44,610 bases of DNA. Source: Acidobacteriota bacterium. Its GTDB lineage: Bacteria > Acidobacteriota > Thermoanaerobaculia > Thermoanaerobaculales > Sulfomarinibacteraceae. Shown here piece by piece: positions 28,051-38,981 of the stretch. The position numbers were made by a program, and so were the translations under genes. The stretch lies in the NCBI GenBank assembly GCA_013152925.1, contig JAADFK010000207.1, positions 1-44,610 of the forward strand. Reading direction: 5' to 3'. Position 1 is the stretch's first letter. Every line of letters starts with the position of its first letter. Below the pieces are notes generated by a model. The model searched no databases. It saw only the letters and a program-made list of their open reading frames with translations, and was not told the origin of the DNA.

Positions 28051-28191
28051 GCGCGCACACATGGCAATCCAGCCGGCCGTGGCGCCGCTGGCACACCGCC
28101 CGGGGAGATCGCCCGCTATTGAGCCGCGGGATCAATACTATTGCTGTTCGGGCTCGTGGACCTGCAAACCGCGCGAACGTACCCTGCAAGG

Positions 28192-31100
28192 ATGAGCCGT
28201 ACGGTTCCCAGGGAAGAAGTCAACCACATCCGGACCGCCTTTGAAAAGGGGCAGCTCTGTCTCCACTATCAACCGATTCACGCCATCGATACCGGTCAGA
28301 TTGTCGCGTTCGAAGCGCTCGTTCGTTGGAACGACCCGCAACGCGGTGTGAGGGGGGCTGCCGAAATCATCCCGCTGGCCGAACGAAGCGGGCTCATCGT
28401 CGAGCTTGGCGACTGGGTGCTCCGCGAAGCCCTGCGCCAGGTGCAGAAATGGAAGGCCATGGATCCCGAACGTTCGTTCCGGATTCATGTCAACGTCTCT
28501 CCGATTCAGCTCGAGGAGCAGGCCCTTGCACGGAGGGTCGGCAACCTCCTGGAGGCCCATGGGGTCAGGCCTTGCGACCTGATCCTCGAAGTCACGGAGT
28601 CGAAGCTGCTCAGCCCGTCCAGTCATGTGCGGGAGCAGCTTGAGGGTCTTCGTCGGCAGGGCGCGCGGGTCTTCTTGGACGACTTTGGGAGTGGCTTCTC
28701 GTGCCTCGCCTACCTCCAGGATTTTCCCGTGGATGGCCTGAAGCTGGCGGGCACCTTTACGAGATCGATTGCCGAGGGTGCGGAACGGAATCCTCTCATC
28801 AAGTGGCTGACAAGAATGGGGAAGTCCCTCGGCCTCGAAATGATCGCGGAAGAGGTGGAAACGGACCAACAGCTTCGCGGTCTCAGGGCTCTTCAGATCC
28901 CTCTCGCCCAAGGGTTCTTGCTGTCGCCACCACTTCCCTCCGAGCAGGTTGATCTCCTCATGGGAGTGGGAAAGGGGGACGAGCTCGGGGTGTCCAGCGT
29001 GGGTGGCCCGCAGGAGCCGTTCCTGGTCGAGGTCTTCGAGTTGGAAGCTTTCGTCGACCGCGACAACCTCGCTGGATTCACGGCCTGTCTCGACGGGCGG
29101 ATTCTCTCCTGTACCGAGGCCCTGGCGAAGCTGCTGGGTTTTCCACCCACGACGCGACCCGGGGAGATCAACCTGCGAAGCTGTTTCGCCAGGGAGGGTG
29201 ACGCCGAACGCTTCTTCTCCAGCCTGGCTGCAACTGGACAGGTTGGAACACTCGTGACACGTCTTTGGACCCGGGACGGGGATCCGTTCTGGGCAGCGCT
29301 CTCGGCATGTGCTTCGCCAACGCCGGACACGGAGCTCCGGCTCACCGGGACGCTGATGCCCCTGGAGGCTCCGCTCCATCCGAACATCGAGACCATCACG
29401 CTTGACCCCATTGCCGCACAGCTCCTGGAGGCCGCCTGTGGATTCACGATCCTCATCGACCAGCACGGGGGGCTGAGGTACAAGAGCCCTTCCATGGAGG
29501 TCTCGTTCGGCTCAAAGGTGCCGGCAACCTCAGGGCGATCCGCGCGGATTTTTGACTGTATCCACCCGGACGACCTCTCGACGGCACGAGAGCTCTTTTC
29601 CCGGGCGCTGGCGGCCACCGACGCCGCCATCTCCTTCTCCCTCCGTGCTCGTGCCCGTGACGGAGGCTGGCACCGGCTCGAAGGCGTCGCGCGAAACCTG
29701 CTCGACCATCCAGTCATCCGCAGCATCCTGGTCAGTTGCCGGGACGTCACGGAACGGTGGAGGGCCAAGGATGAGCTGCAGCGCCTCCAGAGCTTTCATT
29801 CCACCGTTCTTGAGGAATTGGGTGAGGGCATTGTGGTCAGCGACGCTCGCGGTCGCATCATGTACGTGAACCCGGCAGTGGGGAGGATCCTGGGAAAGGA
29901 GCCCGAGGACCTTATCGGGCAGCCCGAGCTGGAGTTGCTCCCTCGTGACCAACGCCTGTTCGCCATGGCGGCCAACAAACGGCGCAGGGAGGGTCAGGCC
30001 GACAGGTACGAGGTTGAGGTCGAGCGCCCGGACGGGACCAGGCTCCCGGTCCTGGTCAGCGGCCGGGCCCTGTTCGACGATGGGGAATACTCCGGAACGC
30101 TCGCGGTCCTGACCAACCTCGAGGAGGTGGCTCTTGCGCGGCAGCAAGCCGCGCTCCTCAGCCTGGCCGTCGAACAGACGGGCGAGTATGTCATCATTAC
30201 CGACAGCAACGGCATCATCCTGTATGTCAACCCGGCGTTCGAGCGTGGCACCGGGCTGCGACGAGAAGACGTCCTGGGCAAGACGCCTGCCAGCCTGAGC
30301 ATGGGCGTCGACGGTCCGGAGGTCTACCAGGATGTCGTGCAGACCATCCGTAGGGGTGATTCCTGGCAGGGGATGATGGCCGTTCAGACGTACGATGGCA
30401 GGGAGCGCGACCTGCTGGTCTCCGTCTGGCCGCTCAAGGATGCTGCGGGCCGCATCACCCACTTTGTGGGGGTGGAAAGGGACATCACCGAGGAGCTGAA
30501 GCGTGAATCGCGCCTTGCTCATGCCGAAAAGATGGAGACGCTGGGCGCTTTTGCGGCGGAAGTTGCCCATGATTTTCGGAACATGCTGTCGGTCATTGAC
30601 ACTGCTGTCGCCAACCTGGCGACGGCCGACGAGTGCACCGGATTGCCCCGCGAGGAGAATGTGGCCACGATCCGAAGGGCGGTCCGGTCAGCCCACGACC
30701 TGATTCGCAACCTGCTGGGTTTTGCTCGGCGCGCGCCCCTCACCAGGGAGGCTCGTGATCTCAGTGAGGTCATCTCCAAGGCTGGACCGATTCTCCGGCG
30801 GCTCCTTCCCGCCTCGATTTCCGTGAGGCTCGAGCTGGCCCGGAAGCCGTTGCCGGTATCTTGTGACAGTGGTCGCTTGGAACATGCCCTCCTCAACCTT
30901 TGCTCCAACGCGCGTGACGCCATGCCGGAGGGCGGAGAGCTCACGATCCGCACCGGCAGTCGCCTGATCGACCAGAAGACGGTGGAGGCACAGCCATGGA
31001 CCTTTGCCGGAGAGGCCGTCTTCTTTTCGGTGACAGATACCGGCTGCGGCATCGATCCCGGCGCCCTTGAGAAGGTCTTCGACCCCTTCTTTACCTCCAA

Positions 31101-31650
31101 GGGACCGGACAAGGGAACAGGCCTTGGGCTCGCCTCCGTTCTTGGGACCGCCCGACAGCATGGCGGCTTCGTCGACGTTGTCAGCGCTCAGGGGGAGGGC
31201 TCGACCTTTACCATCTTCCTCCCACGCCTGGAGGGCACGTGGAAAGATGGTGAGGGTGAAACGATGGATGCCAGCAAGGCGCCGCGCCTGCCGGCCAGCG
31301 ACGCCCAGCGCGTTGCCCCATGCGTTGTTGTTGCCGATGATCTTCCCGAATTCCTGTCGACGGCAGCGGCGCTCTTGCGATCGTACGGGTTTGAGCCGGT
31401 GACCACAGGACGGTGGGAGGAGCTGTGGAAGGTCCTGAATGAGCGGTCCCCGGAGGCAATCCTCCTCGATTGGACTCTCGGAGGCGAGGCGTCTCCCGCG
31501 GAAGTGGAGCGACTGCAGAAGCTGGGGCACCGGGTCATCATCCTCACCGGCGACGCCGAGAATGCACGGGGAAGAACGGACGCGCCAGTCTTCGAGAAAC
31601 CTTTTGATTGGGAGGCAGTCTTGCAAATGCTCGCGGGGGACGCCCGATGA
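28192..31650 (+). CDS. Hybrid histidine kinase with N-terminal EAL domain: EAL-PAS(x4)-HisKA-HATPase-REC
   Basis: A 1152-residue cytoplasmic signalling protein with no membrane span. EAL domain (about 8-255): FEALVRW (E41), HVNVSPIQL, LEVTES, LDDFGSGFS, EEVET and LAQGF keep most c-di-GMP phosphodiesterase positions, but the usual LKID is LKLA and EGVET is EEVET. About four PAS domains span 285-770. The HisKA box is EVAHDFRNML (H793). HATPase motifs are LNLCSNARDAM (N906), DTGCGID and GTGLGLA. The receiver (about 1043-1150) has DD 1049-1050, D1093 and K1136. ATG 28192 is chosen by domain fit; TTG 28141 is possible. Its stop overlaps the next kinase gene. Confidence 0.88.
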   Translation: MSRTVPREEVNHIRTAFEKGQLCLHYQPIHAIDTGQIVAFEALVRWNDPQRGVRGAAEIIPLAERSGLIVELGDWVLREALRQVQKWKAMDPERSFRIHVNVSPIQLEEQALARRVGNLLEAHGVRPCDLILEVTESKLLSPSSHVREQLEGLRRQGARVFLDDFGSGFSCLAYLQDFPVDGLKLAGTFTRSIAEGAERNPLIKWLTRMGKSLGLEMIAEEVETDQQLRGLRALQIPLAQGFLLSPPLPSEQVDLLMGVGKGDELGVSSVGGPQEPFLVEVFELEAFVDRDNLAGFTACLDGRILSCTEALAKLLGFPPTTRPGEINLRSCFAREGDAERFFSSLAATGQVGTLVTRLWTRDGDPFWAALSACASPTPDTELRLTGTLMPLEAPLHPNIETITLDPIAAQLLEAACGFTILIDQHGGLRYKSPSMEVSFGSKVPATSGRSARIFDCIHPDDLSTARELFSRALAATDAAISFSLRARARDGGWHRLEGVARNLLDHPVIRSILVSCRDVTERWRAKDELQRLQSFHSTVLEELGEGIVVSDARGRIMYVNPAVGRILGKEPEDLIGQPELELLPRDQRLFAMAANKRRREGQADRYEVEVERPDGTRLPVLVSGRALFDDGEYSGTLAVLTNLEEVALARQQAALLSLAVEQTGEYVIITDSNGIILYVNPAFERGTGLRREDVLGKTPASLSMGVDGPEVYQDVVQTIRRGDSWQGMMAVQTYDGRERDLLVSVWPLKDAAGRITHFVGVERDITEELKRESRLAHAEKMETLGAFAAEVAHDFRNMLSVIDTAVANLATADECTGLPREENVATIRRAVRSAHDLIRNLLGFARRAPLTREARDLSEVISKAGPILRRLLPASISVRLELARKPLPVSCDSGRLEHALLNLCSNARDAMPEGGELTIRTGSRLIDQKTVEAQPWTFAGEAVFFSVTDTGCGIDPGALEKVFDPFFTSKGPDKGTGLGLASVLGTARQHGGFVDVVSAQGEGSTFTIFLPRLEGTWKDGEGETMDASKAPRLPASDAQRVAPCVVVADDLPEFLSTAAALLRSYGFEPVTTGRWEELWKVLNERSPEAILLDWTLGGEASPAEVERLQKLGHRVIILTGDAENARGRTDAPVFEKPFDWEAVLQMLAGDAR

Positions 31651-32324
31651 CCAGCCCGAGCCTGTCTGAAGGCGATGTTCGTGAAATGCTGGCCCGCTTG
31701 GCGCACGAGATCCGCAACCCCCTGGCCAACGTTGATTCTTCGGCCCAGCTCCTGGCCCGGCTGGGGGACCTTGACGAGAGCTCGGAGCGGCTCGTGTCGG
31801 GGATCCGCAGCCAGGTGAAACGTATCGACGAGGTGATTCGTGCCATGCAGCGGTTCATCCGTCTCGACCAGCAAACGGCGTCGGGCATGCGGATTGACGA
31901 AGCCGTGCGTCTGGGGCTTCAGATCATTGCCGGTCGCGGGAGAACCAGGACCTCGTCACTTCGCGTGGAGCCGGGGCCCGAGTGCGTGGTCCTGACGGAT
32001 CCGAATCTCCTCCCGGCTGCCATCGCGGAGGTCTTGGACAACGCCTTCACATTCTCCCCGGCGGGCAGGACGGTGACGGTAGCGTGGAGCCAGACCGGAA
32101 CGCACGAGCTCCACATCGTGATCGACGATGAAGGCCCGGGCATCGCCTCCGACATCGAGAACCGGATCATTCGCCCGTTCTTCTCGACATCGACGCGTGG
32201 GATCGGTCTCGGGCTCAACATAGCGCAAAGGGCGTGCCGGCTCCTGGGCGGAGACCTGAGCTGGCGCAATCTCCCCGGTCGCGGGGCACGCTTTGTCATC
32301 AACGTCCCCTGCATTGGCCCCTGA
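31647..32324 (+). CDS. Short cytoplasmic histidine kinase
   Basis: A 225-residue kinase with no sensor domain. HisKA: MLARLAHEIRNPLANV with H20. ATPase: LDNAFTFSPAG (N132), DDEGPGI (160-166) and TRGIGLGLNIAQ (183-194). It should autophosphorylate and pass phosphate to a partner receiver. It overlaps the hybrid kinase gene by four bases and lies one base before the NtrC-type gene, which makes the NtrC-type receiver the obvious target. The lack of an input domain suggests it takes its signal from the hybrid kinase or another protein. Confidence 0.87.
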   Translation: MTSPSLSEGDVREMLARLAHEIRNPLANVDSSAQLLARLGDLDESSERLVSGIRSQVKRIDEVIRAMQRFIRLDQQTASGMRIDEAVRLGLQIIAGRGRTRTSSLRVEPGPECVVLTDPNLLPAAIAEVLDNAFTFSPAGRTVTVAWSQTGTHELHIVIDDEGPGIASDIENRIIRPFFSTSTRGIGLGLNIAQRACRLLGGDLSWRNLPGRGARFVINVPCIGP

Positions 32325-32325
32325 C

Positions 32326-33639
32326 ATGGCACTTTGTCTTCTGATCGAGGATGACCCTGCTCAGCGCGCTCTTCTGAAAGAGCTGCTGGTCAGCCAGACC
32401 TATCAGGTGATCGAGGCCGGATCCGGCGCCTCGGGACTGGAGCTGGCCCAGCGTTTCAAGCCGGACGCAATCATCCTGGATCTTGGTCTGCCGGACGGAG
32501 ACGGGAGCGGTCTCATCGCTCCGGTCCTCGCGGCCGACCCCTGGACCGTGGTGATCGTGCTCACCGGCGATGACTCGGCGCGGACTGCTGTGGATGCCCT
32601 TGGCGCCGGTGCGCGGCACTACCTTGTCAAGCCCGTGGAACATGACGAGCTCCTCCTCGTCCTCAAACGAGAGCTCGCGCTTTCCGGCACCCGGGAGGCG
32701 AGGGCCCGTCGTGAGTCCGGGCGAGCTTTCTGGGGGGCCAACCTCGAGATGAGCCGGCTTCGAAGGGTCGTGGAACGTCTTGCTGAATCCCCGAGAACTT
32801 CGGTTCTCATCAGTGGCGAAACCGGATCCGGGAAAGAGGTTATCGCTCTGGAGCTGCATGAAGCCACTGGGTGCCAAGGGCCTTTCGTACCGCTGAATTG
32901 TGCCGCCATACCCGATGGTCTCCTGGAGTCCGAGCTCTTTGGCCACGAGTCCGGGGCGTTCACGGGCGCCGGGAAACGACGGCGCGGTCTCGCAGAGCTG
33001 GCCGACTCTGGCACCCTGTTCCTCGACGAAATCTCCGAGATGGCGCCAAGGCTCCAGGCCAAGCTGCTGCGTTTCCTCCAGGACGGGAGCTTTCGTCCCG
33101 TTGGTGGGGAGATGGAGCTCAAGAGCACGTGCAGAGTGATCGCCGCCACCAACTTGGAGCTGAGCGTTCTTCGGGATGAGAAGCCCCTCCGGGAGGACCT
33201 GTTTTTCCGGCTCGCGGTCGTGACTCTCTCGGTGCCCCCGCTGCGCCAGCGCTCGGAAGACATACCTGCCCTGTCGAGCTTTCTCCTCGATCGCCTGGCA
33301 TCCGAGCTCGGAAGGAAACCAGCCCGTCTGTCAGCGCGGGCCCTGGCGGCGCTCCTGGCGCATTCGTGGCCGGGAAACGTCAGGGAGCTCCGGAACCGCT
33401 TGGAGCGGGCAATGGTGCTCTGCCAGGGCACGGAAATCAATCCGGAGGATCTTGATCTGAAACCTTGGAATCGAAGTTGTACCACGGCAATCCACGCGCT
33501 GGAAGACCCAGCGCAGCTTCACCGGCTGCTTCAGGCAGAGGGGGGGAACATCAGCGCCGTTGCGAGACGGCTCGGCGTTCCCCGCCATCTCGTCAGGTAC
33601 CGTGCCAGGAGACTGAGGACCATGTTGAACCCGCGGTGA
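32326..33639 (+). CDS. Sigma-54-dependent response regulator, NtrC family
   Basis: A 437-residue bacterial enhancer-binding protein with all three expected domains. The receiver (1-115) has ED 8-9, phosphorylation site D52 and K102. The AAA+ domain has Walker A GETGSGKE (164-171), the sigma-54 contact loop GAFTGA (210-215), Walker B LFLDEIS (231-237) and the arginine-rich [17 protein letters not shown]. The C-terminal Fis-type helix-turn-helix is at 405-430 ([19 protein letters not shown]). ATG 32326 follows the kinase stop by one base. It should activate sigma-54 promoters; one lies 288 bases after its stop and drives the next operon. Confidence 0.93.
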
Positions 33640-33879
33640 GCGGCTCCGGCCGGCGTGCGGCTCCGCGTGTCTGTCATGTGACCCCCTGAACCGGCATGGG
33701 TGATTGCCCGTGGCGACTGGCGCCGGATCTTTCTGCTTGATACACCTTCGCGAATACGAGACGGGGCTCCGGGTGCCCCCCGCCTTCCCCGAGGCGCCAG
33801 AACGTCCAGGTCGTCGCACCGTTCATCCGGTTGAACCGCCCAGCTGGCATTGAACAGTGTTTGACCATCCTGGACCGCA

Positions 33880-33899
33880 ATTGGCCACGATTGTCCAAT
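33880..33899. promoter_or_regulatory. Candidate activator-binding palindrome
   Basis: ATTGGCCACGATTGTCCAAT has ATTGG/CCAAT arms and seven of ten paired positions. Its centre is about 63 bases before the predicted transcription start, closer than usual for sigma-54 enhancers. Upstream GGACCGCAATTGG shares part of the motif. Binding by the NtrC-type protein is inference. Confidence 0.35.
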
Positions 33900-33926
33900 C
33901 CCTCGCTGTGACATGTCGGCTGAACC

Positions 33927-33942
33927 TGGCACCGCGATTGCT
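33927..33942 (+). promoter_or_regulatory. Sigma-54 (-24/-12) promoter
   Basis: The sequence TGGCACCGCGATTGCT fits the TGGCACG-N4-TTGCW consensus at every position but one; GG 33928-33929 and GC 33940-33941 have the required 12-base spacing. Predicted transcription would start near 33953, only about three bases before the ATG at 33956, so the transcript would be almost leaderless. It sits just after a gene for a sigma-54 activator, which supports it. Confidence 0.75.
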
Positions 33943-33955
33943 CTTGCCTGTATCG

Positions 33956-35110
33956 ATGCTGGAATTGCTTGTTGTCGAGGATGAAAAGGCGTTGGCCAGA
34001 AACATCAAGGTGTTTTTGGAATCGTTTCGAGAGGAGTTTCACGTCACTGTAACGGATACCGGCGAAGCGGCCCTCCACCAGCTCTCGAGTGGAGCGTTCG
34101 ACCTCCTGGTGGCTGACTTTCGCCTGCCGGGAATCGATGGTCTCGAGGTGTTACGTCACGCACTCGCGCGCAACCCGGGGATGCGCGCGATCATGATGAC
34201 CGCGTATCCATCAGACGAGCTGAGAAAGAAGGCGTTGCGCTCCGGCGCCGTTCGCTTTGTCGAGAAGCCGCTGGATATGGCCGATCTCCGCCTTCTTCTC
34301 TGGGAGACGATCGAATGTGGCGGTGACGAAGAATCGGGGCTCACCGTCCGCGAGTTCGTCGAGCTGCTGGAGCTTGCCGGCGAAAGCCAGGGTTACCGGT
34401 TTCGTTTCGCGAAGGATGAGGGTGTAGTCGTTGTGGACCACGGATGTCTGGTCCATGCAGCCACCGCCACGCTCAGCGGACCCGAGGCGTTCGAACGCAT
34501 GGCGAGCTGGGTCGTCACCGACGTGGAGGAAATGCCACACGAGTCCGCGAGATTCCACCCGCACAACATCGAGGTTCCGCTGAGCCACCAGATCTTGGAA
34601 GCTGCGGGGCATCTTGATGGTTCCGGCGGCTCTGCCGGCGGCCGGGAACAACCAGGGGACGAAAAGGCAGCCGGGGGACTGGATGCCGTGCGGGACCAGG
34701 AGAACGCCGAGATCTCTCGGGCTGTGGATTCGCTCGGGGACAGGTCACACCGGCGGGAAGATCGTACCGAAGAGATCACGAGCTACCTGCAGCGCTCACC
34801 CGCCGTGGGAGAATCCGCGCCCTTTCGCGGAAGCCTTGCCGACCTCGGTTTCTCTGCGCTCCTGTGCCTCCTCTGCGAGGTGCCCGGTACGTGGAAGATC
34901 GAGGTGCGAACCCCCGGCAGCTCCGCCGTGGTCTACGTGGCCGACGGCAGTATCGTTCATGCCGCCATGGGAGCCGTATTCGGAGAGGATGCAGCGTATT
35001 CGATCGTAACGTGGGAAGTTGGAGAATTCGAACTCGAGGCGGTGTTGGAAGTGCCTCGACAAACCCTGACCCCGGAATGGTCATCTCTCTTCCTGAGGGC
35101 CTTCGCGTGA
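33956..35110 (+). CDS. Response regulator with two PATAN (DUF4388) domains
   Basis: A 384-residue protein. The receiver (1-120) has VVEDE (acid residues 8-9), phosphorylation site D54 and K104. Residues about 128-218 and 290-384 are PATAN-type regions (FVELLELAGESQGYRFRF, VVVVDHGCLVHAA and ALLCLLCEVPGTWKIEVRTP, VYVADGSIVHAAMG), separated by a low-complexity linker. PATAN domains are thought to mediate protein contacts in bacterial signalling and surface-motility systems. ATG 33956 lacks a ribosome binding site and would be close to the transcript's 5' end. It is the first gene of the operon. Confidence 0.84.
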   Translation: MLELLVVEDEKALARNIKVFLESFREEFHVTVTDTGEAALHQLSSGAFDLLVADFRLPGIDGLEVLRHALARNPGMRAIMMTAYPSDELRKKALRSGAVRFVEKPLDMADLRLLLWETIECGGDEESGLTVREFVELLELAGESQGYRFRFAKDEGVVVVDHGCLVHAATATLSGPEAFERMASWVVTDVEEMPHESARFHPHNIEVPLSHQILEAAGHLDGSGGSAGGREQPGDEKAAGGLDAVRDQENAEISRAVDSLGDRSHRREDRTEEITSYLQRSPAVGESAPFRGSLADLGFSALLCLLCEVPGTWKIEVRTPGSSAVVYVADGSIVHAAMGAVFGEDAAYSIVTWEVGEFELEAVLEVPRQTLTPEWSSLFLRAFA

Positions 35111-35164
35111 GCGGCGGCCGAGGGGCGGAGAGGGCATTCCGGGGCTTGAAGAAAGGAGAGGAAG

Positions 35165-35545
35165 ATGGCGAAGTTGGATGAAGCTCTGAGGGAGATGGCC
35201 GGGGACATACCGGGGATCATCGCGGCCGACATTGTGGGCGCGGACGGTGTTTCGATCGCCACACACAGCGTGGACCCGAAATTCAACGCCGAGGGAGCCG
35301 CCGCTCAGTTCGCACTGGCCATGAAGCTGCTCGAGAAGTCGGCGGGAATGCTTCAGATTGGCACCGTGGAAGACAACCTTCTTTCCACCGCCAAGACCTA
35401 CATCGTGTCCAGGCTTCTCGGCGATGGGAGCTACTACCTGTTGGTCACCGTCGACCGGAGCGACGCCAACCTTGGGAACGTGCGCCTGATGGCGCGTCAG
35501 TATGCGGATGCGCTGTGGGACGCGGTGCCCAAGCGCAAGATGTGA
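35165..35545 (+). CDS. Roadblock/LC7-domain protein
   Basis: A 126-residue protein made of one Roadblock domain: IPGIIAADIVGADGVSIATHS, the helix AEGAAAQFALAMKLLEKSA, and VSRLLGDGSYYLLVTVDRSDANLGNVRLM. Roadblock proteins such as MglB dimerise and regulate small GTPases, but no MglA-type GTPase gene is in the window. Here an ATPase of the ParA type is in the same operon. AGGAGAGG lies directly before the ATG. It is one of three Roadblock-like genes in the operon. Confidence 0.85.
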   Translation: MAKLDEALREMAGDIPGIIAADIVGADGVSIATHSVDPKFNAEGAAAQFALAMKLLEKSAGMLQIGTVEDNLLSTAKTYIVSRLLGDGSYYLLVTVDRSDANLGNVRLMARQYADALWDAVPKRKM

Positions 35546-35610: not shown

Positions 35611-36084
35611 ATGGCAACGGAAGAGCAAAAAAAAGAACGGATGAGGCGGCTCTTCAACGACATCATCTTCGGCTATGGGAAAGGGCTTTGGGACCTGTTC
35701 GGCGAAGCTTCTCAGGCCACGGCCGAGACGATCGGCGAAGACATCCTCGAAGACATGGAACGCGAGTTGGGCTTGGAGATCCACGGCGAGAACCCGCAGG
35801 CCTTGCTGACTGAAATCGAGCGGTTGATCATCGACGAGTACGGCATGGTCAAGAGCGCGCGGCTGGAGATCTCGGACCACGAGGTCGATATCTTCTGCGA
35901 GGGCTGCCAGCTGTGGAATGTCACACAACAGTTGAAGGAGGCGGGCGTTCCACCCTATCACTGCGTGCCGATGATGATGGCCCGTGCGGCGCTCCACAAG
36001 CGCCTCGGGAAGAAGGCACGGCTCATCGGTATCAAGCACGATGCGGAGAAGCGCTCCTGCGAGATCGACATCGAGCTGGTGTAA
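35611..36084 (+). CDS. Conserved cysteine-containing protein, possibly V4R-like
   Basis: A 157-residue protein with an N-terminal helical region and a C-terminal half resembling 4-vinyl-reductase (V4R) small-molecule-binding domains: DEYGMVKSARLEISDHEVDI, a CEGC pair (C96, C99), PYHCVPMMMARAALHKRLGKK (C118) and KRSCEIDIEL (C150). The resemblance is my pattern reading; no search was run. The cysteines might bind a metal or ligand. I chose ATG 35611, with AAAGGAG upstream, over GTG 35593. It lies between the Roadblock and carbonic anhydrase genes. Confidence 0.55.
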   Translation: MATEEQKKERMRRLFNDIIFGYGKGLWDLFGEASQATAETIGEDILEDMERELGLEIHGENPQALLTEIERLIIDEYGMVKSARLEISDHEVDIFCEGCQLWNVTQQLKEAGVPPYHCVPMMMARAALHKRLGKKARLIGIKHDAEKRSCEIDIELV

Positions 36085-36806: not shown

Positions 36807-38120
36807 GTGACAAAGGCGATCTTCTTCCGCCGTGGCGACTGCCTGGAACCGGCGCAGGCGCAGTATTGGAAAGATCTTCTGTACAGGACGGTCAAGGTTG
36901 GAACAGAAATCGAATTCGCCTTGCCGAAGGGAGTTCGAAAGGGAGACTTCCTGCCGGGCTTGGTAACGGCTCTGTCTCCTTCAAAAGACCTTGAACGACT
37001 GGGTCGCCACGGCGTCCTCGACGTCATCAGCGAGCACTGCGGCATCGAGATACAGGTCATCGGAAGACAGCCGTTTTTCCCAGCCCTTCGAAGCCAGCTC
37101 CTCGGGATCCTGACCCTTCTGCCGCACGATGTGCGTGTGCGCTCCACGTGCGGGCTTCATTTTCACGTCCTGACCGTCGGTCTCAATGAGCCCGTGCCCG
37201 AGATCATCCTTGCCAACGTGTGGAATCTGACTCGCAAGTACGCTCCGGAGCTGCGGTTTCTCACGAGCGGCGGACAATCCTACACGGGGCTGTGCCGTCG
37301 CCGGAGCCACTGCAGTCACCTCGAGATGATTCGTTGGAGCCCGGGCTCCCATTCCATGCAGGAAATCAAGACGTACCTTCAACGGAGCAACGTGGTTCCG
37401 GAGCATCAGAATTTCCTCAACCTCGAACATATCTGTTTCGAGCATGACGGTTCGGTGGGCAATCTCCACTACGAAAACCGGTTCCCGGACGCTGATTTGA
37501 GCCCAACGTCGATTGCCGCCAAGGTTTTCTTGTTTCTTGCCATTCTATTGCAGGCCGTGGACTTGAGTCAGTACGGCGTGATTCACGTGGGGTGTATCCA
37601 GGAGTGGCGTCGCAAGGTGGAGCTCCTGGGGATGCTGAGCAACAATGATGGCAAGCTGGCGACGAGCGACACGTCACGAATCGGTCCTCAGGTTCTCGAG
37701 GAGCTTCGCGCCGGGAGCCGGGAGCTCCTCGATCTTCTTGGCCCGGTTTTCCGAAGGCTCGCGCGTGTTTCGGGGGAGACGCGGGAACCTCATCCTGCAC
37801 TGTCGGTTCTGCAGGTCTTGGCTCACACTCCCATTTCATTGCTGCGAGCCGAGGACTTCGACTGGCCGGGATGTGAGCGAACCCTGGGCCTTGGCATCAC
37901 CAACGGTTTCGGCTTTTTGGACAACGTTGACCGACGTCTGATGCAGCTCATCGACCTCGGTGAGCTCACGCGCAAGGGGGACCTGCGCTCCTGGAATCTC
38001 GAGGCCGCGCGTGAGCTCTTGCTGACTCCGGAGGAGTTGGAGACGCGCCTCAGCCGCCTGGAGAGGTGGCGGGATCTCATCTGGGATGCCGAACGCGGCA
38101 CCATGGCCTTTCGGGTGTAA
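36807..38120 (+). CDS. Putative amidoligase (glutamine-synthetase-like fold)
   Basis: A 437-residue protein with the three features of the Amidoligase_2 type of COOH-NH2 ligase: VGTEIEF (31-37) with metal-site glutamates, CGLHFHV (115-121) with the paired histidines, and LHYENRFPDADLSP (220-233) with a Glu/Arg pair. These enzymes use ATP to join a carboxylate and an amine, making amide or peptide-type bonds on small molecules or proteins. The following class II amidotransferase starts three bases after its stop, which matches reported pairings of the two families. The substrate cannot be read from sequence, and the family call rests on motifs only. Confidence 0.7.
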   Translation: MTKAIFFRRGDCLEPAQAQYWKDLLYRTVKVGTEIEFALPKGVRKGDFLPGLVTALSPSKDLERLGRHGVLDVISEHCGIEIQVIGRQPFFPALRSQLLGILTLLPHDVRVRSTCGLHFHVLTVGLNEPVPEIILANVWNLTRKYAPELRFLTSGGQSYTGLCRRRSHCSHLEMIRWSPGSHSMQEIKTYLQRSNVVPEHQNFLNLEHICFEHDGSVGNLHYENRFPDADLSPTSIAAKVFLFLAILLQAVDLSQYGVIHVGCIQEWRRKVELLGMLSNNDGKLATSDTSRIGPQVLEELRAGSRELLDLLGPVFRRLARVSGETREPHPALSVLQVLAHTPISLLRAEDFDWPGCERTLGLGITNGFGFLDNVDRRLMQLIDLGELTRKGDLRSWNLEAARELLLTPEELETRLSRLERWRDLIWDAERGTMAFRV

Positions 38121-38123
38121 ACC

Positions 38124-38981
38124 ATGTGCGGATTGAGCGGAGTGCTGCTGCATCCTGAAAGACGTTCACCAGAGGTATGGCGAGCCATCGGGAACACCTT
38201 TACCGACTGCTTTCTTTTCAGCGAGTCGCGCGGACGCGACGCCAGTGGTGTTGCAATCATATGGGCGAACGGTATCTGCCAGGTGCTCAAGATGGCTGTG
38301 CCGGCATCGAGCCTGGTTGCAATGGATGGGTACGGGCAGTTGCTGGAACGGCTCGGCGACGGCGTGATCTGCATCTTGGGGCACACCAGGAAGCCCACCA
38401 AGGGGAGCCCTGAGCTCAACGCGAACAACCATCCCATTCGAGCGGGTCACGTGATCGGCGTCCACAACGGCGTCATCCAAAACGACGACGACCTGTTCAA
38501 GGCCCACCGATTCACACGCTCGGGTCAAGTGGATAGTGAGGTCATTTTTCGCCTGTTGGATGCGCCGTGCGCCATGTCCGCCGAAACCATGGGGAGCCGT
38601 TGGCTGGAGATGCGGATGGCCGAGCTCGAGGGGACATTTGCAACCTTGTCAGTTGATATTCGTCGTCCGAATCTGCTCGTCGCCCTGCGCAAGGATCGTC
38701 CGCTCAACCTCCACTACGACGGTGACACGAGGGCACTGTACTTTTCCTCGCGCTACATCTACCTCCGAAAGGCCTTTGGCACCGCGGTCGTCAATGAGAC
38801 GATTGGCGATGATCATGGGTACATCTTTGACGCCAACCAATTGCCCAGGAATGCGTGGCATCCCACGTTTGAGTTTCCGATACCGGGGGATGTCTCGGCT
38901 CTTGAAAACGCTGGAGTGAACGAAAACCTGGGCGGAATGTCTGAACAGCGGCCTCCAACGGGAAAGGAACGGCAGCCATGA
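38124..38981 (+). CDS. Class II glutamine amidotransferase (Ntn-type)
   Basis: A 285-residue protein. Its N-terminus is MCGLSGV, so removal of the initiator leaves the catalytic cysteine, as in GATase-II enzymes. Other family motifs are LGHTRKPTKGSPELNANNHP (85-104) and GVHNGVIQND (112-121). Such domains release ammonia from glutamine or break gamma-glutamyl amides. No synthetase domain is attached, so its partner is probably the adjacent amidoligase. The stop overlaps the ParA start in ATGA. Confidence 0.85.
   Translation: MCGLSGVLLHPERRSPEVWRAIGNTFTDCFLFSESRGRDASGVAIIWANGICQVLKMAVPASSLVAMDGYGQLLERLGDGVICILGHTRKPTKGSPELNANNHPIRAGHVIGVHNGVIQNDDDLFKAHRFTRSGQVDSEVIFRLLDAPCAMSAETMGSRWLEMRMAELEGTFATLSVDIRRPNLLVALRKDRPLNLHYDGDTRALYFSSRYIYLRKAFGTAVVNETIGDDHGYIFDANQLPRNAWHPTFEFPIPGDVSALENAGVNENLGGMSEQRPPTGKERQP

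Follow-up and report, generated by a model that had tools for sequence, protein, structure and literature searches.

How does an operon begin both its transcript and its first protein when the promoter all but touches the start codon? The question is raised by one locus in a window of 44,610 nucleotides (the whole stretch of DNA that was analysed), in which a gene for an NtrC-type activator is followed by a -24/-12 motif and then by a response regulator gene. We judge it probable that positions 33927-33942 form a functional, activator-gated sigma-54 promoter, which would give a near-leaderless mRNA for the response regulator and carry genes led by Shine-Dalgarno (SD) sites behind it on the same transcript. 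The main genes are as follows.

28141-31650, plus strand: EAL-PAS-PAS histidine kinase-receiver, first kinase of the cascade (Pfam EAL, PAS, HATPase_c, HisKA; TTG start uncertain).
31647-32324, plus strand: small histidine kinase (Pfam HisKA-HATPase_c); the kinase-activator order is also present in genomes G007, G011, G113, and G114.
32326-33639, plus strand: NtrC-type sigma-54 activator with receiver, AAA+ domain with GAFTGA, lid, and degenerate Fis-type helix-turn-helix (HTH).
33956-35110, plus strand: response regulator with DUF4388 (RR-DUF4388; Pfam Response_reg 1.6e-23, DUF4388 4.7e-12), no SD site.
35165-35545, plus strand: Roadblock/LC7-like protein (Pfam Robl_LC7 7.5e-4, below cut-off), strong SD site.
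35611-36084, plus strand: conserved, SD-led protein of 157 aa without a family; orthologues lie beside the response regulator gene in G007 and G011.
36807-38120, plus strand: so-called 'amidoligase', present in 3 of 149 genomes of the class (the host, G007, and G011).
38124-38981, plus strand: class II glutamine amidotransferase-like protein (Pfam GATase_6 1.8e-14).

The activator has the domains that its proposed role demands: PF00158 (2.8e-56), Response_reg, and AAA_lid_14 by Pfam, with HTH_8 at 19.7 bits, just below the cut-off, and clear in the orthologues of G007 and G114. Its best PDB matches are crystal structures of the NtrC family. The earlier note had rightly placed the promoter directly after this gene; the activator ends at 33639 and the response regulator starts 316 bp downstream, a gap longer than the approximately 90-105 bp of the orthologues. 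From the response regulator, which likely has two copies of DUF4388, the order continues with the Roadblock-like protein, the 157-aa protein, a carbonic anhydrase-like protein, the 'amidoligase', the class II amidotransferase, and a ParA-like protein. The name 'amidoligase', also from the earlier note, found no support: 36807-38120 matches nothing in Pfam, even at E<=5, or in NCBIfam, and gave no usable fold (model pLDDT 40). The 157-aa protein likewise has no Pfam or NCBIfam match, and both proteins are well conserved in three genera, yet match no family of either collection. The sole Rfam hit in the window is a tRNA.

Immediately before the response regulator gene lie two further features.

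33927-33942, plus strand: sigma-54 promoter, almost certainly real (-24 element TGGCAC, -12 element TTGCT; spacing conserved in 16 loci).
33953-33955, plus strand: predicted 5' leader (TCG, 3 nt), placed from the -12 position.

The motif TGGCACCGCGATTGCT stands exactly where it had been reported. It departs from the consensus TGGCACRNNNNTTGCW solely at position 7 (C instead of R), and is an exact TGGCAC-N5-TTGCW with correct GG-N10-GC spacing. This exact pattern occurs once in the 44.6 kb window, against a chance expectation of 0.05 from dinucleotide shuffles. The host genome contains 20 exact sites, compared with 6 for a reversed-pattern control, so about 70% of its exact sites are likely real; summed over 20 genomes of the family, the figures are approximately 206 and 75. 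The host also encodes one full-length RpoN (E 3e-69) with the RpoN box ARRTVAKYRE. A sceptical explanation holds that GC-rich DNA has produced the 16-mer by chance and that transcription is driven by a promoter of some other type. The same counts lend it something, since about 6 of the 20 exact motifs in the host genome are expected by chance, as does the C at position 7. However, motif and position are conserved in orthologous and paralogous loci, and a search between the activator and response regulator genes for a sigma-70-like site found none. Conservation at the same spacing, together with the counts, rules out a chance motif, an explanation that we find scarcely credible.

The near-leaderless layout is not a general trait of the sigma-54 promoters in this genome. 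That idea was rejected: the other exact sites typically lie upstream of leaders with SD sites, or have no start codon at near-leaderless spacing. One of them (L003:1501-1516; G000:C24:2238-2253) lies ahead of a gene for a type IV prepilin-like protein (GFTLIELL) with an SD site; in the window's own genome, this is a sigma-54 target of the ordinary sort.

Where, then, would the transcript begin? The C of the -12 element is residue 33941, which puts +1 at about 33953 and leaves a leader of about 3 nt before the ATG at 33956. This predicted start is uncertain by 1-3 nt; the exact start at sigma-54 promoters shifts by a few bases. It agrees with the earlier proposal of a start some three bases from the ATG, and the underlying spacing of 12-14 nt is kept in 16 loci. 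The accompanying claim that the ATG has no ribosome binding site also stands: anti-SD pairing there is just -0.7 kcal/mol, compared with -9.0 for the Roadblock-like gene, -8.5 for the 157-aa gene, -7.4 for the 'amidoligase' gene, and -6 to -9 for most downstream genes.

Five relatives have the response regulator reading frame fused in frame to a Roadblock domain (L058:6237-7394, L059:5683-7005, L060:9372-10517, L061:5894-7099, and L062:7002-8198). In each, the Roadblock domain starts with an internal ATG, and the SD site ahead of this codon (-8.2 to -11.9 kcal/mol) is the strongest in the gene; by this arrangement, the fused genes likely yield two products, the fusion and a short Roadblock protein. 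In the window (33956-35545), a stop at 35108-35110 breaks the link, and the two are separate reading frames.

The leader depends on the choice of start codon, which is ATG in the window and most relatives and GTG in five; G013 and G000:C48 have a GTG at the near-leaderless position and an ATG 6 nt downstream of it. The window's frame is open back to 33857, and translation might instead begin at GTG 33857 or 33908 in a longer reading frame, or at TTG 33965. The leader would then be absent or about 12 nt long, and the motif would be either part of the coding sequence or followed by a short leader of the ordinary kind. By eye, however, none of these three codons has an SD site. Stop codons in the same frame, located inside the motif or past it, exclude any upstream start in G007, G079, and G113, and thereby pin the start codon there. 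Because receiver strand beta-1 (LLVVEDE) begins at codon 4, a start much further downstream is excluded; initiation at TTG 33965 would truncate that strand, and most relatives have ATG at the same spacing. A different start codon is thus very unlikely, and ATG 33956 is retained.

Relatives of the response regulator were picked from the 149 genomes of the class by protein profile alone. Absence of a -24/-12 motif before orthologous operons had been named beforehand as a refutation, and the motif is present in both G007 and G011. These genomes share the window's order (kinase, kinase, activator, response regulator, 157-aa protein, 'amidoligase'); the amidotransferase comes next in G007, and in G011 lies on a second contig, after a partial 'amidoligase' gene. 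Their promoters read TGGCATGAAATGTGCT-13 nt-ATG and TGGCATCCGTCTTGCG-14 nt-ATG, respectively. Spacers of 12-14 nt recur at further response regulator loci, in G000:C48, G013, G014, G113, G114, G080, G079, G111, G078, G041, and G075, and in G141 and G142 the same arrangement precedes another receiver gene at the head of the operon. The total is 16 loci in 8 families (14 RR-DUF4388 genes and two operon-head receiver genes); in each, 12-14 nt separate the motif from the start codon, for a predicted leader of 2-4 nt.

A locus was counted if GG-N10-GC, with at most 3 mismatches, was followed by the start codon after 12, 13, or 14 nt; GG and GC are therefore invariant by construction, whereas the remaining consensus positions are not. 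Among 339 genes of at least 100 aa on the fetched contigs, 14 have this geometry and all are receiver genes (Fisher 4e-25, uncorrected for relatedness). The loci of G014 and G075 are absent from that count, their starts having been misplaced by the simple gene caller; hence 14 rather than 16. The comparative geometry strongly supports the predicted near-leaderless start of the response regulator gene.

Another alternative accepts the promoter, but has the response regulator translated mainly from longer mRNA produced by read-through from the kinase and activator genes, with the near-leaderless RNA serving mostly the SD-led genes downstream. Activator and response regulator are indeed co-directional and close. 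Moreover, an SD-like stretch survives immediately ahead of the start codon in several relatives: over -10 to -1 in G007, G111, G013, G080, G079, G041, and G141, pairing reaches -4.6 to -7.9 kcal/mol. Such stretches would be useless on a transcript beginning at +1, and so hint at a second, longer transcript in those seven loci. In the window, however, a longer transcript would give the response regulator no SD site either (-0.7 kcal/mol). Furthermore, in 16 loci the distance from the -12 element to the start codon stays at 12-14 nt, a constancy that translation from a read-through transcript would not need. We regard predominant read-through translation as unlikely, though less so than the two alternatives above, and prefer initiation on the near-leaderless mRNA.

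Is the promoter governed by the adjacent activator? Where a sigma-54 activator gene lies directly upstream of RR-DUF4388, 11 of 12 loci are near-leaderless; the twelfth, in G046, has a sigma-54-like site and a 44-nt leader. With the activator elsewhere in the locus the fraction is 3 of 4. None of the eight RR-DUF4388 genes without an activator has the element at the response regulator gene; G142 has it at the head of the operon. The contrast between an adjacent activator and none gives a Fisher value of 7e-5, uncorrected for relatedness. This association makes control by the adjacent NtrC-type activator likely. The activator homologue of G013 (L061:2332-3510) has GNNSGT for GAFTGA and no HTH, yet the response regulator promoter there is a perfect sigma-54 motif; either another activator must serve that promoter, or the gene is decaying.

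The earlier note went further, tying the whole 'amidoligase' operon to the kinase cascade. The comparisons favour its promoter, its near-leaderless start, and the link to the activator; the label found no match, and the extent of the operon is a matter of prediction. Gene order, spacing, and conservation in three genomes make co-transcription of the whole downstream operon plausible.

Binding sites for the activator were sought upstream of the promoter, where one candidate is found.

33861-33900, plus strand: candidate activator-binding array of four T(T/G)GnCC(A/G) units with a 10-bp period, containing the palindrome 33881-33898.

The palindrome, TTGGCCA-N4-TGTCCAA, has 7-bp arms with one mismatched pair, and had been put forward as a possible activator site. 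As a best inverted repeat it is no better than those of shuffled sequences, so as a stand-alone upstream activating sequence it was not significant and gave way to phased half-sites. Its size and place do recur in G113 and G114: the 18-bp frame (7-4-7), with 28 nt between it and the motif, is exactly repeated as GTGGCGACTATTCGCCAC in G114 and GTGGCGACCTTTCTCCAC in G113. None of 2000 dinucleotide shuffles exceeds 2 array units, for a pattern that was defined post hoc, after the array had been seen; a less post hoc test of lag-10 identity (23/300) is merely suggestive. Eight related upstream regions contain 21 sense (T/G)CCA half-sites, against 6.5 expected.

Together, these features suggest a concrete model. 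Kinases encoded upstream would phosphorylate the NtrC-type activator (32326-33639), which would bind the phased TTGnCCA half-sites at 33861-33900. Sigma-54 promoters give no transcription without ATP hydrolysis by an activator. RNA polymerase with sigma-54, parked at -24/-12, would be opened by the activator's GAFTGA-dependent ATP hydrolysis, and transcription would proceed from about 33953. Because the mRNA would then begin only about 3 bases before ATG 33956, the first gene, for the receiver-DUF4388 regulator, would be translated by leaderless-type initiation. The Roadblock protein, the 157-aa protein, the 'amidoligase', and the amidotransferase would be made from their own SD sites on the same transcript.

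Does this layout extend beyond one type of operon? The 149 genomes contain 155 instances of TGGCACN5TTGC with an ATG at near-leaderless distance (N13-15), versus 62 and 65 with the ATG 8 nt nearer and further (P ~1e-9). ATG thus shows about a 2.4-fold excess at near-leaderless spacing over positions 8 nt to either side, and conserved genes other than receiver genes are included. Without family f3 the counts are 123 versus 59 and 64 (P ~1e-5); the sequences are related, which makes both P values optimistic. Three kinds of f3 gene keep the arrangement, those for a coiled-coil protein of 73-80 aa (8 genomes), a single-TM protein of 50-70 aa (7 genomes), and a receiver protein (3 genomes). The small-protein loci of f3 are L144, L147, L172, L174, L175, and L178-L180, and L148, L151-L153, L173, L176, L177, and L181; the single-TM protein has the motif VVYEH, and in both small-protein families the predicted leaders place +1 2-3 nt before the ATG. 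On balance, we lean toward a class-wide use of sigma-54 promoters as combined start signals for transcription and translation, in which a -12 element 12-14 nt before the start codon would yield activator-gated near-leaderless mRNAs. Receiver genes that belong to kinase-activator cassettes would conserve this use, as would several genes for small proteins in other families.

Leaderless bacterial genes have so far been catalogued through sigma-70 -10 boxes. The main survey (Zheng et al. 2011, PMC3160421) detected them just by sigma-70-like boxes, and names the limitation itself, stating that it could not detect leaderless genes with other promoters. Leaderless genes of Bradyrhizobium carry an RpoD-like motif, TGnTA (PMC4842269). 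In the consulted portions of the dRNA-seq maps of Sinorhizobium (PMC3616915), Bradyrhizobium (PMC4842269), and Leptospira (PMC5243855), leaderless and RpoN transcripts both occur and are treated separately, and no sigma-54 leaderless group is described. Our search of the open-access literature turned up no account of leaderless genes driven by sigma-54.

The recurrent, tight layout of sigma-54 element and start codon suggests that translation from activator-gated promoters can begin in an undescribed way. Should start codons regularly adjoin sigma-54 promoters across the class, leaderless translation would be coupled to the most tightly gated promoters known. The sigma-54 leaderless set would then be predictable from DNA, the annotated start codons of such genes could be corrected, and each regulator could be linked to its activator.

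In motif, spacing, rpoN, and an adjacent GAFTGA activator with receiver and Fis-type HTH, the locus resembles classical sigma-54 (-24/-12) promoters and their NtrC-family activators. The leaders of usual sigma-54 promoters, including most others in the host genome, span 13 to 40 or more nt and mostly contain an SD site, whereas those here would be 2-4 nt; the candidate activator half-sites also begin very close to the promoter (about -53) compared with classical systems. The leaderless genes of Actinobacteria, Deinococcus-Thermus, and other groups (PMC3160421; PMC12340547) have +1 at or next to the start codon, as predicted here, and likewise no SD site. Those genes, however, were detected through the sigma-70 -10 box (TANNNT), whereas the element here is of the -24/-12 type and would be activator-gated.
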